Virus record (IMG/VR): IMGVR_UViG_3300009537_001678
Location: 1-20,210 of that record
Origin: a virus
Direction: 5' to 3' (one strand)
Length of the DNA: 20,210 bases
Under the pieces are notes generated by a model. It ran no database searches, had not been told where the DNA came from, and saw only the letters and a program-made list of their open reading frames with translations. Position numbers and translations under genes: made by a program. Within the stretch, counting starts at the first letter, position 1; every line of letters starts with the position of its first letter. This document shows positions 617 through 10,764 of this stretch, piece after piece.

Positions 617-850
617 AACGGAATACTTGCGCTCTCACCTATTGGTTCAGACTTATCAACGGCGGTTGTAGTGTACCATGACATCGCCCCAATGATTGGA
701 CGAGGGTGTTTTTGGGGTACATTTGACGAGTTTTTAGAACGTGTATATGAGAAACCTGTGGGGGATAAGCATCGGGTAATCTATGAGGCACTTGCCCCGT
801 TTTTACAGGTTTGGTATAAGGAACAGAAAAGAGAGGAAAGGCAGGATTGA
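2..850 (+). CDS. Pentapeptide-repeat protein, 3' part (starts before the window)
   Basis: The open frame starting at base 2 has no stop until TGA at 848-850 and no start in the window, so the gene begins upstream. It encodes 41 consecutive pentapeptides of the form (N/D/V)-L-(S/R/G)-x-(A/V/T), the classic A(D/N)LxX repeat, then a non-repeat tail of about 77 residues. The tail contains a GCFWGTFDEFLERV segment that resembles, from memory, C-terminal tails of other phage pentapeptide proteins. Such proteins fold as a right-handed four-sided beta-helix; Qnr and MfpA relatives mimic DNA and bind gyrase, but most phage members have no known role. This repeat block has more Arg (about 23) than Asp plus Glu (about 17), so it is not clearly an acidic DNA mimic. 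The stop lies one base before the nuclease start at 852, and AGAGGAAAGG near 831-840 serves that next gene. Function unknown. Confidence 0.88.
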   Translation, partial: NLSRANLSGANLREANLRGANLGRADLSEADLSRANLSGANLRGANLSGANLGRAVLRGANLRGANLGRADLRGANLGLAVLGGVDLSGADLSGADLSWVDLSWADLSGVDLSGANLRGANLRGANLSGAVLRGANLGRTDLRGANLRGANLGRVDLSGADLSGAVLRGVDLSWADLSGADLRGANLRGANLGRAVLRGANLSGANGILALSPIGSDLSTAVVVYHDIAPMIGRGCFWGTFDEFLERVYEKPVGDKHRVIYEALAPFLQVWYKEQKREERQD

Positions 851-851
851 G

Positions 852-1922
852 ATGAAAAAACGACGTGTTTCATATTCTCAGATTGACCAGTTTAACCAGT
901 GTGGGCGTAAGTACAAATTGTCATATGTAGATGGCATAGTGCCTGCATCCGAAGTTAGTAAGCCTGTGACATTGGGAGGCTTAATTCATGTCGGGTTAGC
1001 GGCTGCAATGCGTGAATACTATACCAACTCTCAGCTTTCGCTTGAATATGTTACGTCTATAGTCCGTGATGCTATGATTAGTAAGTGGCGTGAAGGGCGT
1101 TTAGCAGAAGGACGGCCTACAGATACTTTAACACTGAAGTATCCTAGTGGCCTGACTACAACCTCTGTTCCTGAAGTTGTGGCCGAAGCTATCCAGATCG
1201 TACAGCACACGCTGAGTAATCTGGATATGTCGAATAAAAGTATCTTGTCTGCACAGGTGAAACGAGGACGCACTACAAGTTTTGAGCCGATGGTTGAGTT
1301 TCCCTTAGAAGTTAAAATTCCTAAGACCGCGTTCTACTTTGTGGGTTTTGTGGATGTTGTCTGGTTTGATAGGGAAACTCAACTAGTCGAGTTGGTAGAC
1401 TGGAAAACAACTAGTCGTATTGAGAGGCCGGAAGTACGAGAGCTTGATATGCAGTTGCCGATTTATCAACACGCCTTGCAACAGATGGGAATTGATGTTA
1501 GTCACAGTGTCCTGTACCAAATCCGATCCGCAATACCAGCTATTCCAGGCCTGAATAAGAACGGTACGATGGCACGTACTAAGATCACTACAACCTGGGA
1601 AGTTTATCGACAGGCGCTTATCGACAACAACCTTAATCCAGACGACTATGAAGAGGATATGCGGCCTAAGCTAGATGAGAATGTATTCTTTGCCCCGATA
1701 GCCTATTACTTTTCCCAAGAAATAACCCAAAGATATTGGGATAACATGTTGGAAACATTCAAGGCTATACGTCGTTCTAAACGATACCCCTATACTGGCG
1801 TGTATGGTTTTCCCTGTCGTTCTTGTTGGTATCATGACCTCTGTTTTGCAGAATTACATGGGCATGATGTAGAAAACATGATCGGTGAGGGGGAACGATA
1901 TGTGTATAAGGAGAGAAAGTAA
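852..1922 (+). CDS. Cas4/RecB-like PD-(D/E)XK nuclease with Fe-S cluster cysteines
   Basis: The 356-residue product opens with VSYSQIDQFNQCGRKYKL (about residues 6-22), the usual N-terminal motif of the RecB/Cas4/AddB nuclease family. The catalytic segment ELVDWKTTS has D183 and K185, and a GFVDVVWF strand lies shortly before it. C17 together with C322, C325 and C331 near the C terminus (CRSCWYHDLC) matches the split four-cysteine pattern that holds a 4Fe-4S cluster in Cas4 and AddB. The expected role is DNA end resection or single-strand exonuclease activity in phage recombination. I chose ATG 852 over an in-frame upstream start at 783 because AGAGGAAAGG lies just ahead of 852 and the upstream start would add 23 residues overlapping the pentapeptide gene. 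Its TAA overlaps the next ATG (TAATG). No CRISPR array is nearby, so the Cas4 resemblance is structural only. Confidence 0.87.
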   Translation: MKKRRVSYSQIDQFNQCGRKYKLSYVDGIVPASEVSKPVTLGGLIHVGLAAAMREYYTNSQLSLEYVTSIVRDAMISKWREGRLAEGRPTDTLTLKYPSGLTTTSVPEVVAEAIQIVQHTLSNLDMSNKSILSAQVKRGRTTSFEPMVEFPLEVKIPKTAFYFVGFVDVVWFDRETQLVELVDWKTTSRIERPEVRELDMQLPIYQHALQQMGIDVSHSVLYQIRSAIPAIPGLNKNGTMARTKITTTWEVYRQALIDNNLNPDDYEEDMRPKLDENVFFAPIAYYFSQEITQRYWDNMLETFKAIRRSKRYPYTGVYGFPCRSCWYHDLCFAELHGHDVENMIGEGERYVYKERK

Positions 1923-2182
1923 TGTCGGATTTTTTAGCGGACTTATATGAACGTTTGGATAAACTGTATAAGGATATGCTACCTATTCTAGATACCCATA
2001 AAAGGCTAACATTTATATTTGGAATTGAGGCAATTGAGGTAGGGGTTGAGCGTAAGGTCCATGAACTTAACTCGATAATCTCTGGGTTAGACGATAAGGT
2101 AGACGAGTTAAAAACTCAGGATGAGGTGTTACGTCGAGACATTGTTGAACTTAATGCAACTATTGATAGTCTCGAAAGATAA
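1922..2182 (+). CDS. Small coiled-coil protein A (86 aa), unknown function
   Basis: This 86-residue, charged, helical protein starts by TAATG overlap with the nuclease gene. Residues of about 45-86 show heptad-like spacing of Val, Leu and Ile (VHELNSIISGLDDKVDELK and onward), consistent with a coiled coil. Its central segment closely matches the next gene: bases 2063-2089 and 2350-2376 agree at 25 of 27 positions, and the proteins share V-x-E-L-N-S-x-I-S-x-L. The two are therefore probably tandem duplicates that have diverged. There are no cysteines, membrane segments or enzymatic motifs. Its place between a Cas4-like nuclease and a Sak4-like ATPase suggests an accessory or scaffolding part of the recombination module, which is inference only. 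Confidence 0.75.
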   Translation: MSDFLADLYERLDKLYKDMLPILDTHKRLTFIFGIEAIEVGVERKVHELNSIISGLDDKVDELKTQDEVLRRDIVELNATIDSLER

Positions 2183-2208
2183 CTTGATGCGTAAAAGGAG
2201 TGAAGATA

Positions 2209-2433
2209 ATGAGTGAGTTCGAGAGAAAATTGTCCGAACATTTAGAGGACCTGTATACAGCAGTTGAGTGGAAGTTGACCGATCATCAGAGTACGATGCT
2301 GCTTAATCGACTTGGCACTATTGAAGAGCTTGTTGTTAATCAGGTTGACGAACTTAACTCGACAATCTCTGAGTTAAAAGATCAAAATAAGAGACTTGAA
2401 TATGCGCTTGAAGAAGTGAGCGGAGAGGAGTGA
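2209..2433 (+). CDS. Small coiled-coil protein B (74 aa), paralogue of its neighbour
   Basis: This acidic 74-residue helical protein begins MSEFERKL. ATG 2209 is preferred because AAAAGGAG at 2193-2200 is correctly spaced for it (8 bases); an in-frame GTG at 2200 overlaps that binding site. The C-terminal half (VDELNSTISELKDQNKRLE) is predicted coiled coil and matches the preceding gene at both DNA and protein level. The stop is TGA 2431-2433, one base before the ATPase start, so translation is probably coupled. No known family is recognised. Hetero- or homo-oligomerisation with protein A is a reasonable guess given the shared coil, but nothing in the sequence shows it. Confidence 0.75.
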   Translation: MSEFERKLSEHLEDLYTAVEWKLTDHQSTMLLNRLGTIEELVVNQVDELNSTISELKDQNKRLEYALEEVSGEE

Positions 2434-2434
2434 T

Positions 2435-3280
2435 ATGTCACTAACATTTAGTACGCCAAAAGCAACAACCAATTTTCGTACCCTGTTGTACGGTGATACG
2501 GGGGTAGGTAAGACTGTAGTGGCGCTGTCTGCGCGACTTGACCCTGATCTTTGCCCTATTTTAGTGGTGGATATTGATGCAGGGCTGTCTTCGGTTAACT
2601 GGCTTAATGAGGATAAAGAACGGGTAAGGGTAGTAACTCTTACCGAGTTAGAGGACTTAAAACAACTCATTAATGAGTTTACTAAGCCCGCTAAGTTTCA
2701 AAACGACGGGGTTAAGGGGGTTAAAACCCTTATTATTGACAGTGTATCTGCTCTACGTAATCGCACTCTTGACTTGGCGGTTGAGCGCGCACATAAAAAA
2801 TATCCAGATAAGTATGAGCGTTGGCGACCTCAAATTCAGCATTATGCAGAGGCTACGTACTCTATTGCAACAGTGGTAGATGTTTTACGGCAGATGCAGC
2901 TTAATCTCATTTTAACAGCGGGGGTTGATGAGCTTCGCACCGATGCAGGGATGATAGACGAAGCGCGCCCTTTGATGAATGATCGTCTCAGACAATCTAT
3001 TTACTACATGATGGATAACGTTTGGTTTTTACGAGAGGTAAACGGTAGATATACGTTACAAGTTTTACCTCGTGAAAGTTCAGTCAAGATCAAAACAAGA
3101 AACGATAAGTATACTGAAAGGTTGCGCCAACTGACAAGAGAGGTTGCCCCAAAAGGGAAGGAAACTGCATATGAGGGGCGACTAGTAATATCGTCGCCAT
3201 ACGAACAAACTATCCCATATCTATATAATCTATATAAACAGTCGGTAGAAACTGAGGAGAATGAAAATGACAAAGAATAA
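2435..3280 (+). CDS. Sak4-like P-loop ATPase (RecA-fold recombinase, AAA_24 type)
   Basis: The 281-residue protein carries a Walker A motif G-D-T-G-V-G-K-T at residues 20-27, a VVDIDAG strand at 44-50 and a Walker B strand KTLIIDS at about 97-103. This arrangement and length fit the AAA_24/Sak4 group of phage single-strand annealing, RecA-core ATPases, which load on single-stranded DNA with the help of a phage SSB. The next gene is a putative SSB, the common Sak4 pairing, and a Cas4-like nuclease lies upstream, so these genes form a recombination set. GGAGAGGAG directly precedes the start. The end overlaps the next gene by 14 bases. The exact subfamily is inferred from context and could be settled by profile search. 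Confidence 0.85.
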   Translation: MSLTFSTPKATTNFRTLLYGDTGVGKTVVALSARLDPDLCPILVVDIDAGLSSVNWLNEDKERVRVVTLTELEDLKQLINEFTKPAKFQNDGVKGVKTLIIDSVSALRNRTLDLAVERAHKKYPDKYERWRPQIQHYAEATYSIATVVDVLRQMQLNLILTAGVDELRTDAGMIDEARPLMNDRLRQSIYYMMDNVWFLREVNGRYTLQVLPRESSVKIKTRNDKYTERLRQLTREVAPKGKETAYEGRLVISSPYEQTIPYLYNLYKQSVETEENENDKE

Positions 3281-3791
3281 TACCCTGCACTTGCCAGGAC
3301 AAAAACAAGCGATTGAAGATCGTAACCGCCCTGCCCTTGACGTTGGGGAGTATTTGGGGGTTATCACTCAGGTTGCAGAGCATGTTAAAGAGGAGACGGG
3401 CAGTATTAGTTTGAAGTGGTCAATCCTGGTGAACTCCAATCAAGATTGGGAGTTTGAAGGGTGGGATGCTGATGCTACCAAGTTTGACTTGACATATTAT
3501 ACCTGGATCGGTTATCTTAAGGGGGGCGAATTGCATCATTCGGATAAGGCGTTCTCTCTGACTGAGGCTTTACAAAGTGTGGATGCTTTTAATCATGAGA
3601 CTGAAACCCTTGATTTGGACGGGGTTAAAGGTACACTGGTTAGGGTGACAATTAACCATGAGCCGGGATTTAATGCCCCTGATCGCCTGTTTGCGGGCGT
3701 GGCTCGACTGAAGCCTTATTATGCCGAAGATGGAACGTTTGCGCCTAAGATTGAGGTTGAAGTTCCAGAGGACGGTGAAGTAGCTTTCTAG
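3267..3791 (+). CDS. Putative single-stranded DNA-binding protein (DUF669-like)
   Basis: The 174-residue protein has a beta-rich body (GEYLGVITQVAEHVKEETGSISLKW, then FDLTYYTWIGYL and LVRVTINHEPG) and a short acidic tail ending in a hydrophobic residue (EVPEDGEVAF). Such a tail is typical of SSBs, where it recruits partner proteins. Its position right after a Sak4-like ATPase is where phages often encode a DUF669 or SSB-like protein. ATG 3267 is chosen because GAGGAG at 3254-3259 sits 7 bases ahead; the ATG at 3261 is only one base from that site. The gene overlaps the ATPase gene and is followed by an intrinsic terminator, making it the last gene of the first early segment. The SSB role is inference from tail and context. 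Confidence 0.68.
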   Translation: MTKNNTLHLPGQKQAIEDRNRPALDVGEYLGVITQVAEHVKEETGSISLKWSILVNSNQDWEFEGWDADATKFDLTYYTWIGYLKGGELHHSDKAFSLTEALQSVDAFNHETETLDLDGVKGTLVRVTINHEPGFNAPDRLFAGVARLKPYYAEDGTFAPKIEVEVPEDGEVAF

Positions 3792-3816
3792 TTACAAGTT
3801 AGTTCGGGTGTTGGTC

Positions 3817-3844
3817 AGAGTGGGGGTATTTCCCCCACTCTTTT
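3817..3844 (+). terminator. Rho-independent terminator between SSB-like and polymerase genes
   Basis: A perfect 10-bp stem AGAGTGGGGG / CCCCCACTCT (3817-3826 and 3832-3841) encloses a TATTT loop and runs directly into TTT (3842-3844). It sits in the only sizeable gap of the early operon (3792-3860). No convincing promoter is visible between it and the polymerase start at 3861, so polymerase expression probably depends on partial read-through or antitermination. The T tract is short, which also favours partial termination. Confidence 0.85.
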
Positions 3845-3860
3845 AGATAGGGAGATAATT

Positions 3861-5723
3861 ATGGACTGGTACAATATCACTGAAGAAGGCGAAGATTTTA
3901 GTTATTTACTTGACTTACTTGATCCTACTACTGCTAACCTGTCTTATCATGAGTATGTAGCTCTTGACATTGAGACTACAGGGTTACGGCCCTATCATGG
4001 GGACAAGATAGCAGGTATTTCGCTATACTTTCCTCATACGGATCAAGGTTTTTATCTCCCTTATCGACACGGAAAAGAGAATTTATCGTTTTCAACTTGG
4101 GAACGGCTTAAAACATTGTTATTTAATGATAATACTACTTATATACTGTTTAATGCTAAGTTTGATCTGACGTTTTTAGCTCTGGAAGGGTTTGGTTTAC
4201 CTGCCTGTATTGAAGAGGTTATGGTAGCTGCCAAGCTCTTGAATGAGAATGAACATCTTTCTAATTTTAATTCTCGTAAGGGGGCATACCAACTAAAACG
4301 ACTGTCGCGTAAATATTTGGGAGCGTGGGCAGTAGCGGGTGAAGAAGAATTACAACGTAATGCTGAGGCGTATGGGGTTGATCCTAAGAAGGGCATGTAT
4401 CGAATGCCGAGCAGTATGGTTGCCTATTATGCTATCATGGATACCTATATTACCTGGAGACTGCGGGAATTTTATCGTCCTGCTCTGGATAAATGGGGTC
4501 AGTGGGATTTATATAAGGATCGTAGTCAGTTCATTTTAGATGTACTGCTCCGCATGGAAATGAACGGTATGCGGATAGATGTCGATAAACTATATCAGTA
4601 TAAAGCTGAGTATGAGGAAGTGGCCGATGAACTTAGGGGCGGCCTGGTTTTTGAAGCGGGTAAGTTAGGTTTAGGGGACTTTAATCCAGCTTCATCTACA
4701 CAACTTAGGCGATTTTTACAGCTTAGTGGGTATAACATTGAAGATACCCGTAAAGAGACGCTTATGCCCTTAGCTAAACAAGGCGCAGAGCTTATACAGC
4801 AGGTATTAGATTATCGAACAGCGTATAAGGCTGTTAGTACGTTCTATGCCCCCTACTTAAAATATGTAGATGAAAGTTGGGACATTCACCCCTCTATTCA
4901 TCCAATGGGTACGGTTAGCGGTCGCTTGTCCTGCTCTAATCCCAACTTGCAACAAGTACCTCGTACCAAATATCTAAGCAATACAGACTACGAGCCTATG
5001 CAGTATGCGATTAAAGAGGTTTTTATTCCCCGCCCTGGCTATACCTGGGTACAGGTTGACTATAAACAGTTGGAACTACGGCTTGCAGTCTTTTATGCTG
5101 GCGAGGAAACAATGCGGCAGATGTTCTTAGATGGTACGGATATGCACCAGTACACTGCCGATCAGCTAGGGATTACTCGTTTTGAAGGTAAGACAGCTAA
5201 CTTTTCTCTGCTCTACGGTATGGGGGCTGTGACAGGGGCTGTACGTTTGGAGACAAGTGTAGATGAAGCGCGACGTATCATTGAGGGTTGGCATGAACTT
5301 TACCCGGCTTTCAGACAGGCCTATGCTAATGCGGAAGCGTCTGCTAGAGTAGCCCGTGATGCAGACGGGTTAGAGCCAGGGCCATATAAGTACATACGTT
5401 TGGCGAATAATCGTATCAGACACTTTCATGAGTTCGCTGCTTATAAACAAGTGCCACCCTATTACACTGCTTGGAATTTTATCGTACAGGGTACAGCGGC
5501 AATTGTTACGGATGCTTCTATCCATAAAATTTGTGAGGGGTTTTCTAATGACGAACTTCGCCCTATGATGCAAGTACACGATGCTTTTGTCTTTGAAGTG
5601 CGAGATGATCGGGTTGATGAGATCGTGCCTCAAGTAGTGGATATTATGACTGATTGGGAGTATGATCCCCCGATGGCAGTTGATGTAAGTATGTCTAAAG
5701 AGAGTTGGAAAGGTGCAGAATAA
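3861..5723 (+). CDS. Family A DNA polymerase with 3'-5' exonuclease domain
   Basis: This 620-residue replicative polymerase lacks the 5'-3' nuclease domain of bacterial Pol I. Exonuclease motifs are present: D36-x-E38 (ALDIETTG), N98-x-x-x-D102 (FNAKFD) and Y190-x-x-x-D194. Polymerase motif A is DYKQLELR with catalytic D400. Motif B is R440-x-x-x-K444-x-x-x-F448-x-x-x-Y452-G. Motif C is Q-V-H573-D574-A575-F, so the second metal-binding Asp is kept but the usual Glu after it is Ala. Phe at the position equivalent to E. coli F762 predicts normal discrimination against dideoxynucleotides. The gene follows the terminator, with GGGAG shortly before its ATG, and ends in a TAATG overlap with the next gene. 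It is the main phage replication enzyme. Confidence 0.95.
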   Translation: MDWYNITEEGEDFSYLLDLLDPTTANLSYHEYVALDIETTGLRPYHGDKIAGISLYFPHTDQGFYLPYRHGKENLSFSTWERLKTLLFNDNTTYILFNAKFDLTFLALEGFGLPACIEEVMVAAKLLNENEHLSNFNSRKGAYQLKRLSRKYLGAWAVAGEEELQRNAEAYGVDPKKGMYRMPSSMVAYYAIMDTYITWRLREFYRPALDKWGQWDLYKDRSQFILDVLLRMEMNGMRIDVDKLYQYKAEYEEVADELRGGLVFEAGKLGLGDFNPASSTQLRRFLQLSGYNIEDTRKETLMPLAKQGAELIQQVLDYRTAYKAVSTFYAPYLKYVDESWDIHPSIHPMGTVSGRLSCSNPNLQQVPRTKYLSNTDYEPMQYAIKEVFIPRPGYTWVQVDYKQLELRLAVFYAGEETMRQMFLDGTDMHQYTADQLGITRFEGKTANFSLLYGMGAVTGAVRLETSVDEARRIIEGWHELYPAFRQAYANAEASARVARDADGLEPGPYKYIRLANNRIRHFHEFAAYKQVPPYYTAWNFIVQGTAAIVTDASIHKICEGFSNDELRPMMQVHDAFVFEVRDDRVDEIVPQVVDIMTDWEYDPPMAVDVSMSKESWKGAE

Positions 5724-5986
5724 TGAATGAAGGAGTAGATCACTGGCTTGAATGGTTACAGAAGCGTAAAGAGTTGGAAGATGCAGACTATAAGATTATC
5801 AATATGGATGCAGATAACCGGACCAGAGTTGCTACACTTATCTCGAATGGATACGTAAGTATTCTTGGCAGTGTCTATAAAGTTGCTGTTAATTGGGAGA
5901 TGTGTAAGGAGTGCTATACTGATGGATGTGGCCACTGTCGAGGACACGGCGAAGTACCTGTAGTTACTATACAAAAGGTCATATGA
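5723..5986 (+). CDS. Small cysteine-rich (zinc-knuckle-like) protein, 87 aa
   Basis: The start ATG 5723 overlaps the polymerase stop (TAATG); an in-frame upstream ATG at 5705 would lie inside polA-like coding sequence and is not favoured. The N-terminal half is helical and charged (HWLEWLQKRKELEDADYK). The C-terminal part carries CKECYTDGCGHCRGHGEV, i.e. C-x2-C-x4-C-x2-C followed by R-G-H-G, which resembles half of a DnaJ-type zinc centre or a zinc ribbon and could bind one zinc ion. This suggests a nucleic-acid or protein-binding accessory factor. Translational coupling to the polymerase hints at a link to replication. No family is recognised. Confidence 0.75.
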   Translation: MNEGVDHWLEWLQKRKELEDADYKIINMDADNRTRVATLISNGYVSILGSVYKVAVNWEMCKECYTDGCGHCRGHGEVPVVTIQKVI

Positions 5987-6210
5987 TGAGGGTGTATAGG
6001 TGTGGTCGATTGAGTAGGCTTGATAAGGATGATGTTATATTTCCTTCTGGGCATATAAACCGTGTTTTGTTACATGCACGCACTCGAACAAGGGCTAAAC
6101 CTAGTGTTGTTTTGGCTATAAGACTTCATATTGGTGGTCGCGTTTCTAGTCCTGAGCGGCTAATCTATAATGGTAATGTGTATATTGTTGATAAGGGAGA
6201 ACTTGTATGA
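5983..6210 (+). CDS. Small basic hypothetical protein (75 aa)
   Basis: The start is one of two adjacent ATGs, 5983 or 5986, giving MMRVYRCGRLSRL; ATG 5983 overlaps the upstream TGA, and AAAAGG at about 5972-5977 is well placed. The product is basic (many Arg), with alternating hydrophobic strands (SVVLAIRLHIGGRV, LIYNGNVYIVDKGELV), so probably a small beta-rich fold. A longer in-frame version starting at 5926 would lie entirely in the preceding gene and is unlikely. The 3' end overlaps the VRR-NUC start by four bases (ATGA). No function can be assigned. Confidence 0.6.
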   Translation: MMRVYRCGRLSRLDKDDVIFPSGHINRVLLHARTRTRAKPSVVLAIRLHIGGRVSSPERLIYNGNVYIVDKGELV

Positions 6211-6626
6211 AAGAGGAGACAGTTATTCAACGGACAATACAGAACTTTGTCAAAAGTCGTCAGGGCGTTATTTTGAAACTTCATGGTAACGAGTTTCAGC
6301 AGTCAGGCGCGCCCGATCTTATAGGCGGCTTGCCTATTGTGTGCGCGCATATCTTGAGCGACGGTTTTACAATACGTAATGTAAATACTGTGCCTTTTGT
6401 TGTCGAGTGTAAAACCGAACATGGTGCGCCTAGTCGTATTCAACTTCACAGGTTGGCAGTGTGGCGTAACGTTGGCTATGCGGCAGGAGTTGTTCATAGT
6501 CTTAACACGTTTATTGATTTGATAGCTAACTACGTTAGAAAAGGTGGGATACCTACACAGATTGATCCTACGTGGCTACTTGATAATGGGGGTTGGGAAG
6601 TGACGGTAAGCCAGCAGCATGACTAA
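6207..6626 (+). CDS. VRR-NUC domain nuclease
   Basis: The 139-residue single-domain protein matches the VRR-NUC layout: N-terminal helix with E4 (EETVIQRTIQNFV), KLHGNEF (24-30), G-A-P-D37, the catalytic strand FVVECKT with E67 and K69, and Q79 in the following helix (PSRIQLHRLAVW). VRR-NUC proteins are PD-(D/E)XK nucleases found in FAN1 and as small phage proteins; the phage ones are thought to act as structure-specific or Holliday-junction-like nucleases. The gene overlaps both neighbours (ATGA at the start, 8 bases with the helicase at the end). In many phages a VRR-NUC gene stands next to an SNF2-like helicase, as here, implying joint action on branched DNA. Confidence 0.88.
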   Translation: MKEETVIQRTIQNFVKSRQGVILKLHGNEFQQSGAPDLIGGLPIVCAHILSDGFTIRNVNTVPFVVECKTEHGAPSRIQLHRLAVWRNVGYAAGVVHSLNTFIDLIANYVRKGGIPTQIDPTWLLDNGGWEVTVSQQHD

Positions 6627-8019
6627 GCTATGGGCGCATCAGAAAGAGATCGTGGAAACGATTGAAAGGAAGCAAGGGATAATTATCAACGCCGGGATGG
6701 GTACAGGTAAGACGCTGGCTACCCTTACTTTTATTTCAGATCACCCTGAGTTAAATGTATTGATCGTGACTACAAAAGCAGGTATTCAGGTCTGGAAAGA
6801 TGAGATTGAAAAGCACATGCCCCCTGATTTTGAATACTTAGTGTTGGAGAGGGGTACGGTTAAACAAAAAGCGACAGCGGTAGCTGCAACCCGTTTTTCT
6901 GTAGTGATTACTAACTATGAGAGTGTGTGGCGAGAGCCTCTATGGGGGGCGTTACTCCACTCTGATCTGGGTGCGATCATACTTGATGAAAGTCATAAGA
7001 TCAAAGCCCATAACAGTAAGGTTAGTAAAGGGCTATACAAGCTGGCAAAGGAAACTAAAGCGAAGTATCGAGTATGTTTAACGGGCACTCCTTTTCCTAA
7101 TAGTCCGTTGGATATATTTGGACAGGCACGGTTTGTCGATGACACTCTGTTTAATCAGACAATAAACGGTAGACAGGCGCGTTACAGTACCAGCTTTACC
7201 TTGTTTCGCGCACACTATGCAATACTTGTGCCTGTAGGGTCACACATCTATAAGGAAGTCGGATATAAAAACCAAGATGAGATGCACAAGATATTAGGAG
7301 AAATAACGATGACCGTTGATCGGAACGCAGTGCTTGACTTACCGCCGGAACAGCACATTGTCCGCCGTGTTGAGTTAGAGCCAAAGGCCAGACGTATCTA
7401 TGATAGTCTGGCTAAAGAGATGATTGCTGAACTGGCAGAGGGGGTGCTGACTGTTGATAACGTACTTGTAAAGGCTTTACGCTTACAACAGCTTACAGGT
7501 GGTTTTGTTCGCCCCGACAACAGTGAGGAATACCAGCGCGTATCCCTGGCTAAGGCAGCGATGACAGAGGATATTCTGTTTGGTATTTCCCCTACTCAGC
7601 CTGTGGTTGTCTTTGCTCGTTTTACTGAAGAGATTAAGCACCTTAAACAGTATCTATCTGATCGGGGTTATCGGGTCGCCCTGCTTACGGGACAGGTTAA
7701 TGAGTTACGTTTCTGGAAAATGGGGCAGTATCGTATCTTGATTGTTCAGATAGATACGGGCAGCGAGGCTATTGATCTTACAGATGCCCACTACGCAATT
7801 TACTACTCCCATACTTATAGTTTGGGTAAGTATGAACAGTCATTAGCCCGTCTCAGTCGCCCCCGGTTCGATACACCAGAGGCTGTGTTATTTTACCATA
7901 TCGTTGCGAAGAATACGATTGATGTGGATATTCAGACGGCTTTGGCTAAGAAGTTCAATGTTAAAGAAGAACTGATCGCTGGAATTAAAGAGTATACAAT
8001 TGGGGGTTATAGGGTTTGA
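6619..8019 (+). CDS. SNF2-like superfamily 2 helicase
   Basis: The 466-residue protein has an HQKE segment at 7-10, Walker A G-M-G-T-G-K-T (26-32), Walker B L-D-E-S-H (DESH at 123-126), motif III T-G-T-P (155-158) and a motif VI region with Q407, R411 and R414 (QSLARLSRPRF). The DESH box and compact length fit phage SNF2-type DNA translocases. It probably remodels or unwinds DNA for the adjacent VRR-NUC nuclease or clears proteins ahead of replication. It starts inside the nuclease gene (8-base overlap). Its stop forms TGATG with a very short downstream frame. Motif VI has RP where many SNF2 proteins have an R-x-G-Q run, which is common in phage forms. Confidence 0.9.
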   Translation: MTKLWAHQKEIVETIERKQGIIINAGMGTGKTLATLTFISDHPELNVLIVTTKAGIQVWKDEIEKHMPPDFEYLVLERGTVKQKATAVAATRFSVVITNYESVWREPLWGALLHSDLGAIILDESHKIKAHNSKVSKGLYKLAKETKAKYRVCLTGTPFPNSPLDIFGQARFVDDTLFNQTINGRQARYSTSFTLFRAHYAILVPVGSHIYKEVGYKNQDEMHKILGEITMTVDRNAVLDLPPEQHIVRRVELEPKARRIYDSLAKEMIAELAEGVLTVDNVLVKALRLQQLTGGFVRPDNSEEYQRVSLAKAAMTEDILFGISPTQPVVVFARFTEEIKHLKQYLSDRGYRVALLTGQVNELRFWKMGQYRILIVQIDTGSEAIDLTDAHYAIYYSHTYSLGKYEQSLARLSRPRFDTPEAVLFYHIVAKNTIDVDIQTALAKKFNVKEELIAGIKEYTIGGYRV

Positions 8020-8046
8020 TGAGATTATTAGAGAGGATAAGGCGTT

Positions 8047-8193
8047 ATGACACAGATCAGTTATATGAAGATGGAGCGCGGGATTGAATGGGATTATATG
8101 GCACGAGATTATAGTTATGAAGTGTGTGATTACTGGCAGGACGGGGATATGATATATCCAGGCGTGTCAGTATATCGCCGTAATACGAGGTGA
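8047..8193 (+). CDS. Small hypothetical protein (48 aa)
   Basis: An ATG at 8047 follows AGAGGATAAGG and reads 48 codons to TGA 8191-8193. The product is rich in Tyr, Asp and Trp (IEWDYMARDYSYEVCDYWQDGD) with a basic C-terminal end, and has no recognised family. It fills the gap between the helicase and the membrane protein, in the strand and spacing expected of the operon. A 22-codon frame starting by TGATG overlap at 8019 and ending at 8087 competes with it and could be a leader; it is too short to judge. Confidence is moderate because only the binding site and context support this gene. Confidence 0.55.
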   Translation: MTQISYMKMERGIEWDYMARDYSYEVCDYWQDGDMIYPGVSVYRRNTR

Positions 8194-8227
8194 AAGATTT
8201 AGAATAGTCTATATAAAGGAAGGCATT

Positions 8228-9091
8228 ATGGGGTTTGATGAAGCGTGGGAAAAGTTTCAACACGAGTATCAGGCGGTTAACCTGCCCCCAGAAAAACCAG
8301 AGATACAGTCCCGTTCAAAGTGGCAACGACGTTCTCTGGCGCTGGCAGTAATTGGGAGCAGCATATTTTCAACACTGCACTCTGTCCCTACACTGCTTAA
8401 AAGTCTGGGCATGGATTTGTCAGGGACTTCCCCACTTATCATCGTTGGGATCGGGGCAGTTATTACCATGATGGCTGAGATACCGTTGTTTGTGTTTGCC
8501 TTTATTCGTGTGCGGTACAAGGCGCGTCAACAGATGTCTAGTGTCGGGTCAACCCTCACTTGGTTGAAGCGTGGGCTAATTATGGTGTTTGTCCTCATGC
8601 TGGTATCTAACGTTGTAGCGTCACTGGAAGGGTTTGACATCGAATTGCCGGGCATTGTCCGGCTTGCTCTGGCGATATTTTTAGGCGCGTCTGCACCAAT
8701 GGTAGCGTTGATTAGTGGTGAGACCTTTGCTATCTTAGATATTGAGGGGCGTACAGACGAGCGTAAGGGCATGGCGATCTATGATAAAGCGGTAGCAGAG
8801 TACGAGGAAGCAAAGAGACGCTCCTGGAACTCTCGAAAAGGCCGTATGATTGAACGTACATCGAACGTACAGGATCGTACACTGTACGATGTTCGTTCGA
8901 TAACGAACGTACAAAATCGTACAGATCGTACAAAACGAACAAAGCCTGAACAAATAGCAGACATGATCGTACAAAACGGGCATGAAAATATGACTGTACG
9001 CGAACTACGTGAAGCCTATGCGGACATGAGTACATCGTTAGATACGCTTAGTAAGGCCAGAAAGATTGCAAGAAACGAAAACGATGCTTGA
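8228..9091 (+). CDS. Four-helix membrane protein with cytoplasmic HTH-like tail
   Basis: The 287-residue protein starts after AAAGGAAGG. Hydrophobic segments at about 37-58, 68-93, 114-134 and 144-170 predict four membrane helices with both ends in the cytoplasm. A charged helix follows (about 180-200), then a repetitive R-T/N-V-Q linker (209-238), and then a segment of about 240-281 (PEQIADMIVQNG, MTVRELREAYADMS, LDTLSKARKIA) whose three-helix pattern resembles a DNA-binding helix-turn-helix. The layout, membrane part plus C-terminal HTH, recalls proteins on actinobacterial plasmids and phages, but I cannot name a family with certainty. The linker-coding DNA is packed with CGTACA repeats. 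It is the last early gene and converges on the lysis-like operon. A role in tethering DNA or replication to the membrane is inference. Confidence 0.85.
   Translation: MGFDEAWEKFQHEYQAVNLPPEKPEIQSRSKWQRRSLALAVIGSSIFSTLHSVPTLLKSLGMDLSGTSPLIIVGIGAVITMMAEIPLFVFAFIRVRYKARQQMSSVGSTLTWLKRGLIMVFVLMLVSNVVASLEGFDIELPGIVRLALAIFLGASAPMVALISGETFAILDIEGRTDERKGMAIYDKAVAEYEEAKRRSWNSRKGRMIERTSNVQDRTLYDVRSITNVQNRTDRTKRTKPEQIADMIVQNGHENMTVRELREAYADMSTSLDTLSKARKIARNENDA
8852..9000. repeat. Cluster of ten CGTACA elements with two palindromes (iteron/operator-like)
   Basis: CGTACA occurs on the plus strand beginning at 8855, 8866, 8876, 8908, 8918, 8927 and 8968, usually as GAACGTACA or GATCGTACA. It also occurs inverted (TGTACG) at 8884-8888 and at 8995-9000. 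ATCGTACA-C-TGTACGAT (8874-8890) is a perfect 8-bp inverted repeat with a one-base centre. GTTCGTT-CGAT-AACGAAC (8891-8908) is a second, 7-bp palindrome. The copies fall in different codon phases of the surrounding gene (CGT ACA = Arg-Thr, or xxC GTA CAx), so a protein repeat alone does not explain them. This is the layout of a protein-binding array: a replication origin, a multi-operator or a partition site. Elsewhere in the window CGTACA is scattered singly, for example at 1199 and 5483. Confidence 0.75.
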
Positions 9092-9119
9092 GCCTTTATG
9101 CTCTAATCTTTGTCAAGCA
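9085..9119 (-). terminator. Weak hairpin at the convergent junction
   Basis: TGCTTGA (9085-9091) and TCAAGCA (9113-9119) are a perfect 7-bp inverted repeat, with an alternative inner GAGC/GCTC pair. Read on the minus strand it is followed by a T-rich run (TCGTTTTCGTTTCTT) inside the opposite gene. It could terminate the lysis-like operon where it meets the early operon. The long loop makes this uncertain. Confidence 0.3.
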
Positions 9120-9435
9120 ATACGAACAACCTGTCGAGCCGATCTGCAATACTGGCAAGACAACGTTCTAAGGTAGAGAGCGTTTCCTGAGTACGCTCTC
9201 TATCTGTTTTTATATCTTCTCGTATGTCCCGCATAGTTAGAGTAAGCTCTCGAATGGCTTCAGTCAAATGATCCGTAAACTTCCCCCATATTTCATCGGT
9301 ATCTGTTCGTGCTTTTGTAAATCCGATTATAATGCCCGACAGGAGCTTGTAAGCCCCTGTCGTTAGAATGATCGCAGTTGTCAGTATAGCAATGACGATC
9401 CCGGCCTCGCCTAATGCTTGTACAAACTCTGTCAT
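9103..9435 (-). CDS. Small membrane/coiled-coil protein, possible second holin-like protein
   Basis: The 110-residue protein has one N-terminal hydrophobic stretch (about 12-39, GIVIAILTTAIILTTGAY) followed by a charged helix with heptad spacing (about 45-108, ending LASIADRLDRLFVLLDKD). This order, one membrane helix and then a cytoplasmic coil, resembles BhlA/UviB-type holin-like proteins, but no signature is decisive. It begins by ATGA overlap with the metallophosphoesterase gene and is the last gene of the operon driven from the promoter near 10812-10840. It ends 11 bases from the convergent early operon. A holin or anti-holin role is inferred only from topology and context; a tail or membrane-anchored accessory protein is possible. 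Confidence 0.7.
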   Translation of the reverse strand: MTEFVQALGEAGIVIAILTTAIILTTGAYKLLSGIIIGFTKARTDTDEIWGKFTDHLTEAIRELTLTMRDIREDIKTDRERTQETLSTLERCLASIADRLDRLFVLLDKD

Positions 9436-10397
9436 GTAATCCTACTCCAGTCTGTGAGGTACGGGTTGTCTGTCCACAACTCACCTCGCCCGTCAATAAT
9501 AATTCCAAAGCCTTTGTTCATATTCGGCATTTTGTTTGTCTTTAGTTGCACATAGTCAAACATGCTCGGTTCATGTAACCCACCAATATCCAGTATGATA
9601 TAGCGCCCCCATTCATCTAACCCAATGGCGCTAAAGTGGTTGTGGGTAACGACAACGTTGGCTTGAAACTTTTGGGCCATTATGTTGCCGATGACCAGCT
9701 TGTTCTTACTATAGTTTTGTTGGTGGGATACAACCCACTTTTGACCTCCGCTATAATGGGTGATACGATCATAGGGAGAGGTCCTTAGAATTGTTCTCAG
9801 GCCGGGGACGATAGTTAGCATTTCAGCAAAGTCGAAAAACTCTAAATCCCCCTGCAAGTTTTCCATAAACCAGTCGTCGTGGTTGCCGGGCGTAAACCAT
9901 ATTTCATTGAACCAGTTGGCGTAATATTTTAAGAGTTCTCGCCCTTTCTTTAGTTCATAGCTGATAGTCGGCGGTCTTACTTTTCGTTTATGGTGTTTAG
10001 CAGATGATCCCGCGTCAAACAAGTCGCCCGCTATATGGAGTTTTTTGATGCCATAATAACGGGCTACATCTACCACCCGTTCAGCCAGATCAAAATCTGT
10101 TTTAGGGAGATGTATGTCTGAGATAACGACTACATCTCCTGTAAGGGTTTGATGTCCGTTAAAGACCGGGATACCTTTTTCTTCTTCTATCCCATAACGA
10201 TAGGTGTCTTGCCGCCTGTTTTTTCTGGACAGGGATAGCCTTTCTGATTTTATGTCTCGACTTACGCCAGCTATGACGTTGCGGCTCACCTTTATACCTA
10301 ATCGCGTTGTCTCCCGTTCTGCGATTTGTTTGAATGTCTTGTTCTGTAACAGGGCAGCGGCTATGTACTCTAGGTCTAAACGATCCCGGATAGCCAT
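9432..10397 (-). CDS. Calcineurin-like metallophosphoesterase with N-terminal HTH-like region
   Basis: This 321-residue protein carries the full metallophosphoesterase motif series: D94-x-H96 (SDIHLP), G124-D125-x-x-D128, G-N-H-D (171-174), H225 and the paired H252-x-H254. Such enzymes use two metal ions to cleave phosphodiesters or phosphomonoesters; the substrate is unknown. Residues of about 8-50 (LEYIAAALLQNKTFKQIAERE, then SRNVIAGVSRDI) look like a helix-turn-helix, suggesting DNA binding. ATG 10397 is chosen over an in-frame TTG at 10439 because GGGGAG at 10405-10410 is 7 bases ahead and the TTG version would run deep into the holin gene. It sits between two membrane protein genes in a lysis-like operon, overlapping the downstream one by four bases. 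It is not a peptidoglycan hydrolase by sequence. Confidence 0.9.
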   Translation of the reverse strand: MAIRDRLDLEYIAAALLQNKTFKQIAERETTRLGIKVSRNVIAGVSRDIKSERLSLSRKNRRQDTYRYGIEEEKGIPVFNGHQTLTGDVVVISDIHLPKTDFDLAERVVDVARYYGIKKLHIAGDLFDAGSSAKHHKRKVRPPTISYELKKGRELLKYYANWFNEIWFTPGNHDDWFMENLQGDLEFFDFAEMLTIVPGLRTILRTSPYDRITHYSGGQKWVVSHQQNYSKNKLVIGNIMAQKFQANVVVTHNHFSAIGLDEWGRYIILDIGGLHEPSMFDYVQLKTNKMPNMNKGFGIIIDGRGELWTDNPYLTDWSRIT

Positions 10398-10401
10398 AGA
10401 A

Positions 10402-10764
10402 CTACTCCCCACGACGTTCAGCGAAAAGCATAGCTTCAATGGCAGCGTCTAAAACAGACAGATCAATGTTTTTATAGCCTGCCTCTCTAAGATAGTTATA
10501 AGCCGCATCCATCGCAGCTTCTTTTTTAGTTTTACCATACTCTCTTAGCAACTGATCTGCTCCGATCTGCTCTGCAAAGTAGATAGCCAAGCCTACAGCA
10601 CTGCCTAAACTGGTACGAAAGTTTTCTGGTAAATATCGCTCGATGTTGGCCTTATGTCGTTTGTACCAGACTGACGCTCCGGCGACGATAAGAGGTACGA
10701 TGTAAGGTAATAGTACCGCTAAAAGGTTAATGGCAGATTGTAACAACGTTTCAGCTTCGTTCAT
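10402..10764 (-). CDS. Phage holin, LLH family
   Basis: The 120-residue protein fits the LL-H-type (superfamily 6) holins: a short N terminus, one membrane helix at about 11-32 (AINLLAVLLPYIVPLIVAG), a basic region (WYKRHK), then a soluble helical domain with the family's conserved pieces AIYFAEQ (60-66), G-K-T-K-K-E-A-A (77-84) and IDLSVLDAAIEAML (100-113). Holins of this type form membrane holes that release or activate the endolysin. AGGAG lies 7 bases before the ATG. It is the first gene after the consensus promoter at 10812-10840, so it can be expressed independently of the tail genes. No endolysin gene is found next to it. Confidence 0.8.
   Translation of the reverse strand: MNEAETLLQSAINLLAVLLPYIVPLIVAGASVWYKRHKANIERYLPENFRTSLGSAVGLAIYFAEQIGADQLLREYGKTKKEAAMDAAYNYLREAGYKNIDLSVLDAAIEAMLFAERRGE

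Follow-up and report, generated by a model that had tools for sequence, protein, structure and literature searches.

What is an array of CGTACA hexamers doing inside the coding sequence of a viral membrane protein? The question is raised by the stretch of DNA analyzed here, a 20,210-base viral genome fragment that is termed the window herein. The gene that holds the array (the host gene; positions 8228 to 9091, + strand) encodes a protein of 287 amino acids and adjoins the right end of a replication/recombination operon (783 to 8019, + strand), which encodes a PD-(D/E)XK exonuclease, a Sak4-like AAA protein, a family A DNA polymerase, a VRR-like endonuclease, and an SNF2 helicase. The array had been predicted to lie at the end of this operon, just before a convergent junction, and this was confirmed by the host gene stop codon at 9091 and the end of the convergent gene at 9103. 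Genes on the other side are late genes, read leftward, among them a weak holin-family match and a tape-measure protein. A hairpin (AGGTAGAGAGCGT/ACGCTCTCTATCT, followed by GTTTTTAT; 9171 to 9212, + strand) lies within the convergent gene and may be where rightward transcription stops; the terminator scan did not flag it.

Two further features of the window were observed. Positions 1 to 618 hold 41 copies of a 15-base unit, one frame of which reads as a pentapeptide-repeat protein (NLSGA-like) that runs off the left end. Between the SNF2 helicase and membrane protein genes there is a 48-codon open frame (8047 to 8193) that falls below the ORF listing limit.

Structure of the CGTACA array

The segment from 8852 to 9000 contains seven exact direct copies of CGTACA (+ strand; 8855, 8866, 8876, 8908, 8918, 8927, and 8968), one near copy (CGAACA at 8936), and two exact inverted copies (- strand; 8883-8888 and 8995-9000). 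Our recount thus agrees with the ten elements of the original prediction, eight direct with the near copy included and two inverted. An extra lone CGTACA is located at 8750. Most copies share the extended unit GAWCGTACA, and the direct copies are spaced 11, 10, 32, 10, 9, and 41 bases apart.

Three direct copies, GAACGTACA TC GAACGTACA G GATCGTACA, make up a first sub-array (8852 to 8881, + strand). A second (8905 to 8941, + strand) consists of GAACGTACA, AATCGTACA, and GATCGTACA, and then the near copy at 8936, and an isolated direct copy, GATCGTACA, follows at 8965 to 8973 (+ strand), within a segment (8965-8978) that exactly repeats 8924-8937. The center had been described as two perfect palindromes. 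The first, ATCGTACA-C-TGTACGAT (8874 to 8890), which joins one direct and one inverted copy, is indeed perfect around its central C, but the second (8891 to 8908) is imperfect, with 7-bp arms, GTTCGTT/AACGAAC, around CGAT. A larger inverted repeat, CTGTACGATGTT / AAAATCGTACAG, spans 8882 to 8924; its arms (8882-8893/8913-8924) are nested with those of another (8860-8871/8890-8901), both repeats being imperfect. The strand fold of 8845-9010 has a z of -5.35; neither Rfam matches nor tRNAs were found.

The array is maintained by selection on DNA

Dinucleotide shuffles of the whole window gave an expectation of 8.5 CGTACA in 20.2 kb, or ~0.06 per 149 bases, but the encoded peptide itself raises the CGTACA count, and the chance expectation is therefore higher than the shuffle value. 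With the peptide fixed and codons drawn at the frequencies seen in the remaining genes, 100,000 resamples averaged 1.15 copies and reached 6 at most, compared with 9 copies observed. Shuffling synonymous codons within the gene gave a mean of 2.98 and a maximum of 8 in 20,000, and shuffling within the array region only, which already contains the chosen codons, gave a mean of 5.5 (P 0.005). Even when any hexamer was allowed in synonymous resampling, the maximum was 7 in 20,000.

An amino acid repeat would be expected to keep to one codon phase and to advance in multiples of three, and the array does neither: its direct copies occupy phase 0 (n = 4) and phase 2 (n = 3), and most of the spacings between them are not multiples of 3. 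These spacings and the two codon phases argue that the DNA, rather than an amino acid repeat, has been selected, as the original prediction had reasoned from the phases, and the synonymous resampling bears this out. The array is real and is kept by selection on DNA. Its iteron-like character was likewise supported by the resampling, the copies, and their codon phases. Like an iteron-type origin, it has several direct copies of a candidate binding unit at approximately helical spacing.

The host gene encodes a membrane protein with a predicted cytoplasmic tail

Four membrane helices are predicted in the host protein (residues ~39-57, 71-89, 117-135, and 144-162), followed by a long helix. The ratios of K+R to D+E by loop, from N to C terminus, are 6/6, 1/1, 6/0, 0/2, and 24/22, and these positive-inside loops place both protein ends, by prediction, in the cytoplasm. 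Hydropathy and loop charge thus give the arrangement expected of a membrane-anchored DNA-organizing protein, in which a soluble tail extends from the membrane helices into the cytoplasm. The array encodes a linker (residues 207-238), and the C-terminal domain (residues 239-287; 8942 to 9088, + strand) comes directly after it, with two outlying copies sitting within its coding part. This domain had been called a helix-turn-helix tail. It is weakly similar to the winged-helix family PF18121 (E 4.6e-4, below the curated cut-off), but a single-sequence model, made with no alignment, consists of two helices without a clear turn (pLDDT 77). No solved relative of the domain was found, and the model of the full-length protein (pLDDT 48) was unusable.

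No homologue of the host gene was found. In phages, tblastn returned three weak matches only (E 0.3), to Mycobacterium phage Typha and its relatives, where the neighborhood differs. None were found in plasmids or viral contigs, and 400 genomes from the phylum of one Dehalococcoidia contig gave weak partial matches only, in the membrane part. With the polymerase, the SNF2 helicase, and Sak4 as anchors, no close sister contigs were found, and the neighborhoods of three distant relatives held no gene annotated as a host gene counterpart 3' of the SNF2 gene; the record of a fourth carries no gene annotation. A literature search on the hexamer CGTACA and on membrane-bound partition proteins with repeats found nothing relevant.

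CGTACA arrays in other genomes

Viral contigs were searched for CGTACA triplets with the pattern CGTACAN{1,4}AWCGTACAN{1,4}AWCGTACA, the reversed hexamer serving as a control. This search recovered 33 stretches versus 5 for the control (6.6-fold), although the 33 are not independent because sister contigs account for several of them. Most of the control arrays were plain in-phase amino acid repeats, and none lay in a recognizable initiator. A composite signature, GAACGTACANNATCGTACA, was also tried and rejected; it recovered four viral loci, each of which had one pair of copies rather than an array. The related loci discussed below were chosen for carrying the motif, so that P-values for single loci do not amount to independent tests, and the lists are samples.

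Among the matches listed, eight arrays lie in the linkers of initiators (L027, L031, L072, L078, L120, L250, L257, and L260), which were named from PHROGs as DnaD-like helicase loaders, replication initiation or O-like proteins, primosomal proteins, or replisome organizers. Their copies occupy three codon phases in six of the eight, two in one, and a single phase in one. Three of these proteins (L031, L072, and L260) are DUF6291 proteins that match replication-initiator PHROGs, and a low-stability segment follows the array in their linkers. The DUF6291 domain, which Pfam lists as of unknown function, was matched in L031 and L072 and is probably an initiator domain. Many viral CGTACA triplets are mere codon-phase repeats (e.g., collagen-like QGVQGVQG), and the collagen-like and other repeat proteins that we checked keep to one codon phase.

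Arrays were also found beside helicase genes. In L043, L065, L077, and L081, direct and inverted CGTACA copies accompany the 3' end of a gene encoding DUF927 + HTH_56, a Cch-type helicase (1922-2196, 10211-10516, 2605-2945, and 4948-5299, respectively), and direct and inverted repeat arrays also stand beside DUF927-HTH_56 3' ends in L271 (10796-11090) and L270 (12801-13110). The phages THSA-485A and FP_Epona encode a distant relative of the SNF2 helicase of the window and carry an array of ~8 copies directly 3' of a DUF927-HTH_56 gene, built of other sequences (GGTAACC and AGGTGAAAC). The arrays beside DUF927-HTH_56 helicase genes are likely origins in which the repeat unit varies between phages.

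Other settings were more varied. In L052 (8264-8791), the gene weakly resembles that of the terminase small subunit and has a CGTACA array in three codon phases adjoining its HTH-like part; this array is possibly a packaging site. At the 3' ends of phrog_1058 genes (L005, L012, L067, L073, and L258), a CGTACA array in 9-base steps encodes a SYKSYKSY-like tail. Bacterial genomes frequently have CGTACA triplets spaced by exactly 11 bases (e.g., L134 and L169 from Rhodobacterales, L128, and L131). Several of them do not fall in a long open frame, and they are possibly operators of a regulator that binds direct repeats. On three contigs of one Bacteroidales assembly, JAFROL01 (L167, L170, and L191), paired opposed CGTACA triplets ~20 bases apart look like a dispersed element. 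None of the other loci examined had such an array inside the gene of a membrane-bound protein.

Possible roles of the array

The reading we favor, tentatively and with less than even confidence, is that the array is bound by the tail of the very membrane protein whose gene contains it, so that phage DNA would be tethered there. The array would comprise ~9 protein-binding sites with the unit GAWCGTACA, mostly in ~10-bp steps, that also encode a tolerant linker. The likeliest binder would be the C-terminal domain of the same product, which is encoded directly after the sites. The four helices would hold this domain on the cytoplasmic side of the membrane, where the bound protein would tether phage DNA, and the tethered DNA could serve as a scaffold for replication or for genome positioning. 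The array itself, the selection on DNA, the topology signals, and the location in the linker were observed directly, and the weak winged-helix match of the tail also favors this reading; DNA binding by the tail, its recognition of this array, and the tethering role are inferences. Precedents exist for a binder gene that carries its own sites, i.e., the eight initiator-linker loci, the probable small terminase gene, and the Cch-type 3' arrays, and the window array looks like a self-encoded binding array of this sort. The binder may also be encoded off the contig.

The main alternative is that the array supplies the iterons of the phage replication origin. Its binder would then be an initiator or Cch-type helicase whose gene lies beyond the 20-kb contig, or else the membrane protein, acting as initiator. 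We regard this as possible but rather doubtful. CGTACA arrays do occur in initiator linkers and beside DUF927-HTH_56 helicases, and the arrays of THSA-485A and FP_Epona indicate that an origin of this type can occur in a phage of the window's kind. Among the scanned proteins of the window, which is an incomplete contig, no initiator, primase, or replicative helicase was recognized, which would suit a binder encoded elsewhere. On the other side, the host gene and its neighbors likewise gave no family match to an initiator or replicative helicase; the compared arrays lie in or beside an initiator gene, whereas the gene here encodes a membrane protein. Stability also separates them. A low-stability segment was found within 120 bp downstream in seven of the eight initiator arrays (z 2.8-4.3; L078, with z 1.2, is the exception), loci that had been picked by eye before stability was computed, and most Cch-type arrays have z values of 3.2-4.5 (2.2 in THSA-485A). 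Around the window array, no such segment was found within 120 bp (z 0.8 in the comparison with the initiator arrays and 0.97 in that with the Cch-type arrays), and the easily melted AT-rich segment that adjoins an iteron-type origin is thus missing here. A complete lambda-type origin is therefore unsupported, even though the analogy with the initiator-linker arrays stands; melting possibly takes place elsewhere, or the origin possibly has no obvious AT-rich segment. The GC-skew inflection that was to mark an origin is present at ~9.2 kb, but it is a maximum of the cumulative skew and coincides with the switch in gene orientation. Because the skew follows gene orientation, we dropped it as origin evidence. 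The missing melting segment fits a membrane tether better than an origin.

A third reading, which we consider unlikely, is that a phage regulator binds the array as a multi-site operator or roadblock, and so controls either transcription through the early operon's end or antisense transcription coming from the late genes opposite. Its place at the early/late convergent junction would suit this role, as would the CGTACA repeats in 9-11-bp steps upstream of ribbon-helix-helix-like regulator genes (L047 and L071) and those at the 3' ends of the phrog_1058 genes. However, promoter-like sites in 7900-9600 showed no excess over chance, with none in the array, and no regulator was recognized in the window. 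It is less probable still that the repeats are a by-product of an Arg-Thr / Asn-Val-Gln linker that arose by local duplication, with no function for the DNA. Duplication may have contributed, given the 90% identity of two 20-nt segments that lie 42 bases from each other, and many viral triplets are indeed codon-phase repeats only; the two codon phases, the inverted copies, the spacings of 10, 11, and 32 (not multiples of 3), a codon choice far past synonymous expectation, and the single phase of the in-phase repeat proteins checked largely refute this reading. About as improbable is a centromere-like partition site of a plasmid-prophage phage with the membrane protein as its anchor, which the array geometry and a membrane-bound candidate binder would suit but for which no ParA- or TubZ-like NTPase was recognized among the scanned window proteins, although the fragment may lack it.

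Returning to the membrane tether, one could extend it, with considerable reserve, to a gene that is both membrane anchor and cis site, i.e., a membrane-tethered initiator or segregation hub with the binding array in its own linker. Initiator genes, the probable terminase gene, and the window gene would then share one device, sites placed within the flexible linker of the binder. To our knowledge, there are few systems in which it is understood how phage genomes attach to the membrane when they replicate or partition, and if one gene codes for both the anchor and the binding sites, it would offer a compact, testable case. Looking within linkers for short arrays whose copies fall into two or three codon phases is a general route to cis sites, origins among them, that are concealed by coding sequence.

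Comparison with known systems

The lambda O gene carries the iterons and origin within itself, so that the protein gains residues with each additional iteron (PMC7466680). Like lambda O, the window gene has tandem sites within coding sequence, which in lambda is that of the binder. The lambda origin combines its iterons with an AT-rich tract, whereas the window array lacks one, and the host of the window array is a membrane protein whose putative DNA-binding part is C-terminal.

In SaPI Rep and SCCmec Cch2, a C-terminal domain binds repeats just 3' of the gene (PMC7581432). A C-terminal DNA-binding domain with repeats near its coding end is putatively shared with the window protein, which differs in having no helicase domain and in having its array mostly upstream of the C-terminal coding part rather than past the stop codon.

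The DnaD-like, O-like, DUF1376, and DUF6291 initiators have the hexamer and the kind of linker (RT, NVQ, NVH, and TYT) in common with the window. They are soluble replication proteins, with an easily melted segment downstream in seven of eight, and the window differs in both respects. Phage phi29 p16.7 is an integral membrane protein that organizes phage DNA replication at the membrane and is described as interacting with single-stranded DNA and the terminal protein, with no array described in its gene (PMC4974454). p16.7 offers a functional precedent for the window protein as a membrane protein that would organize phage replication.
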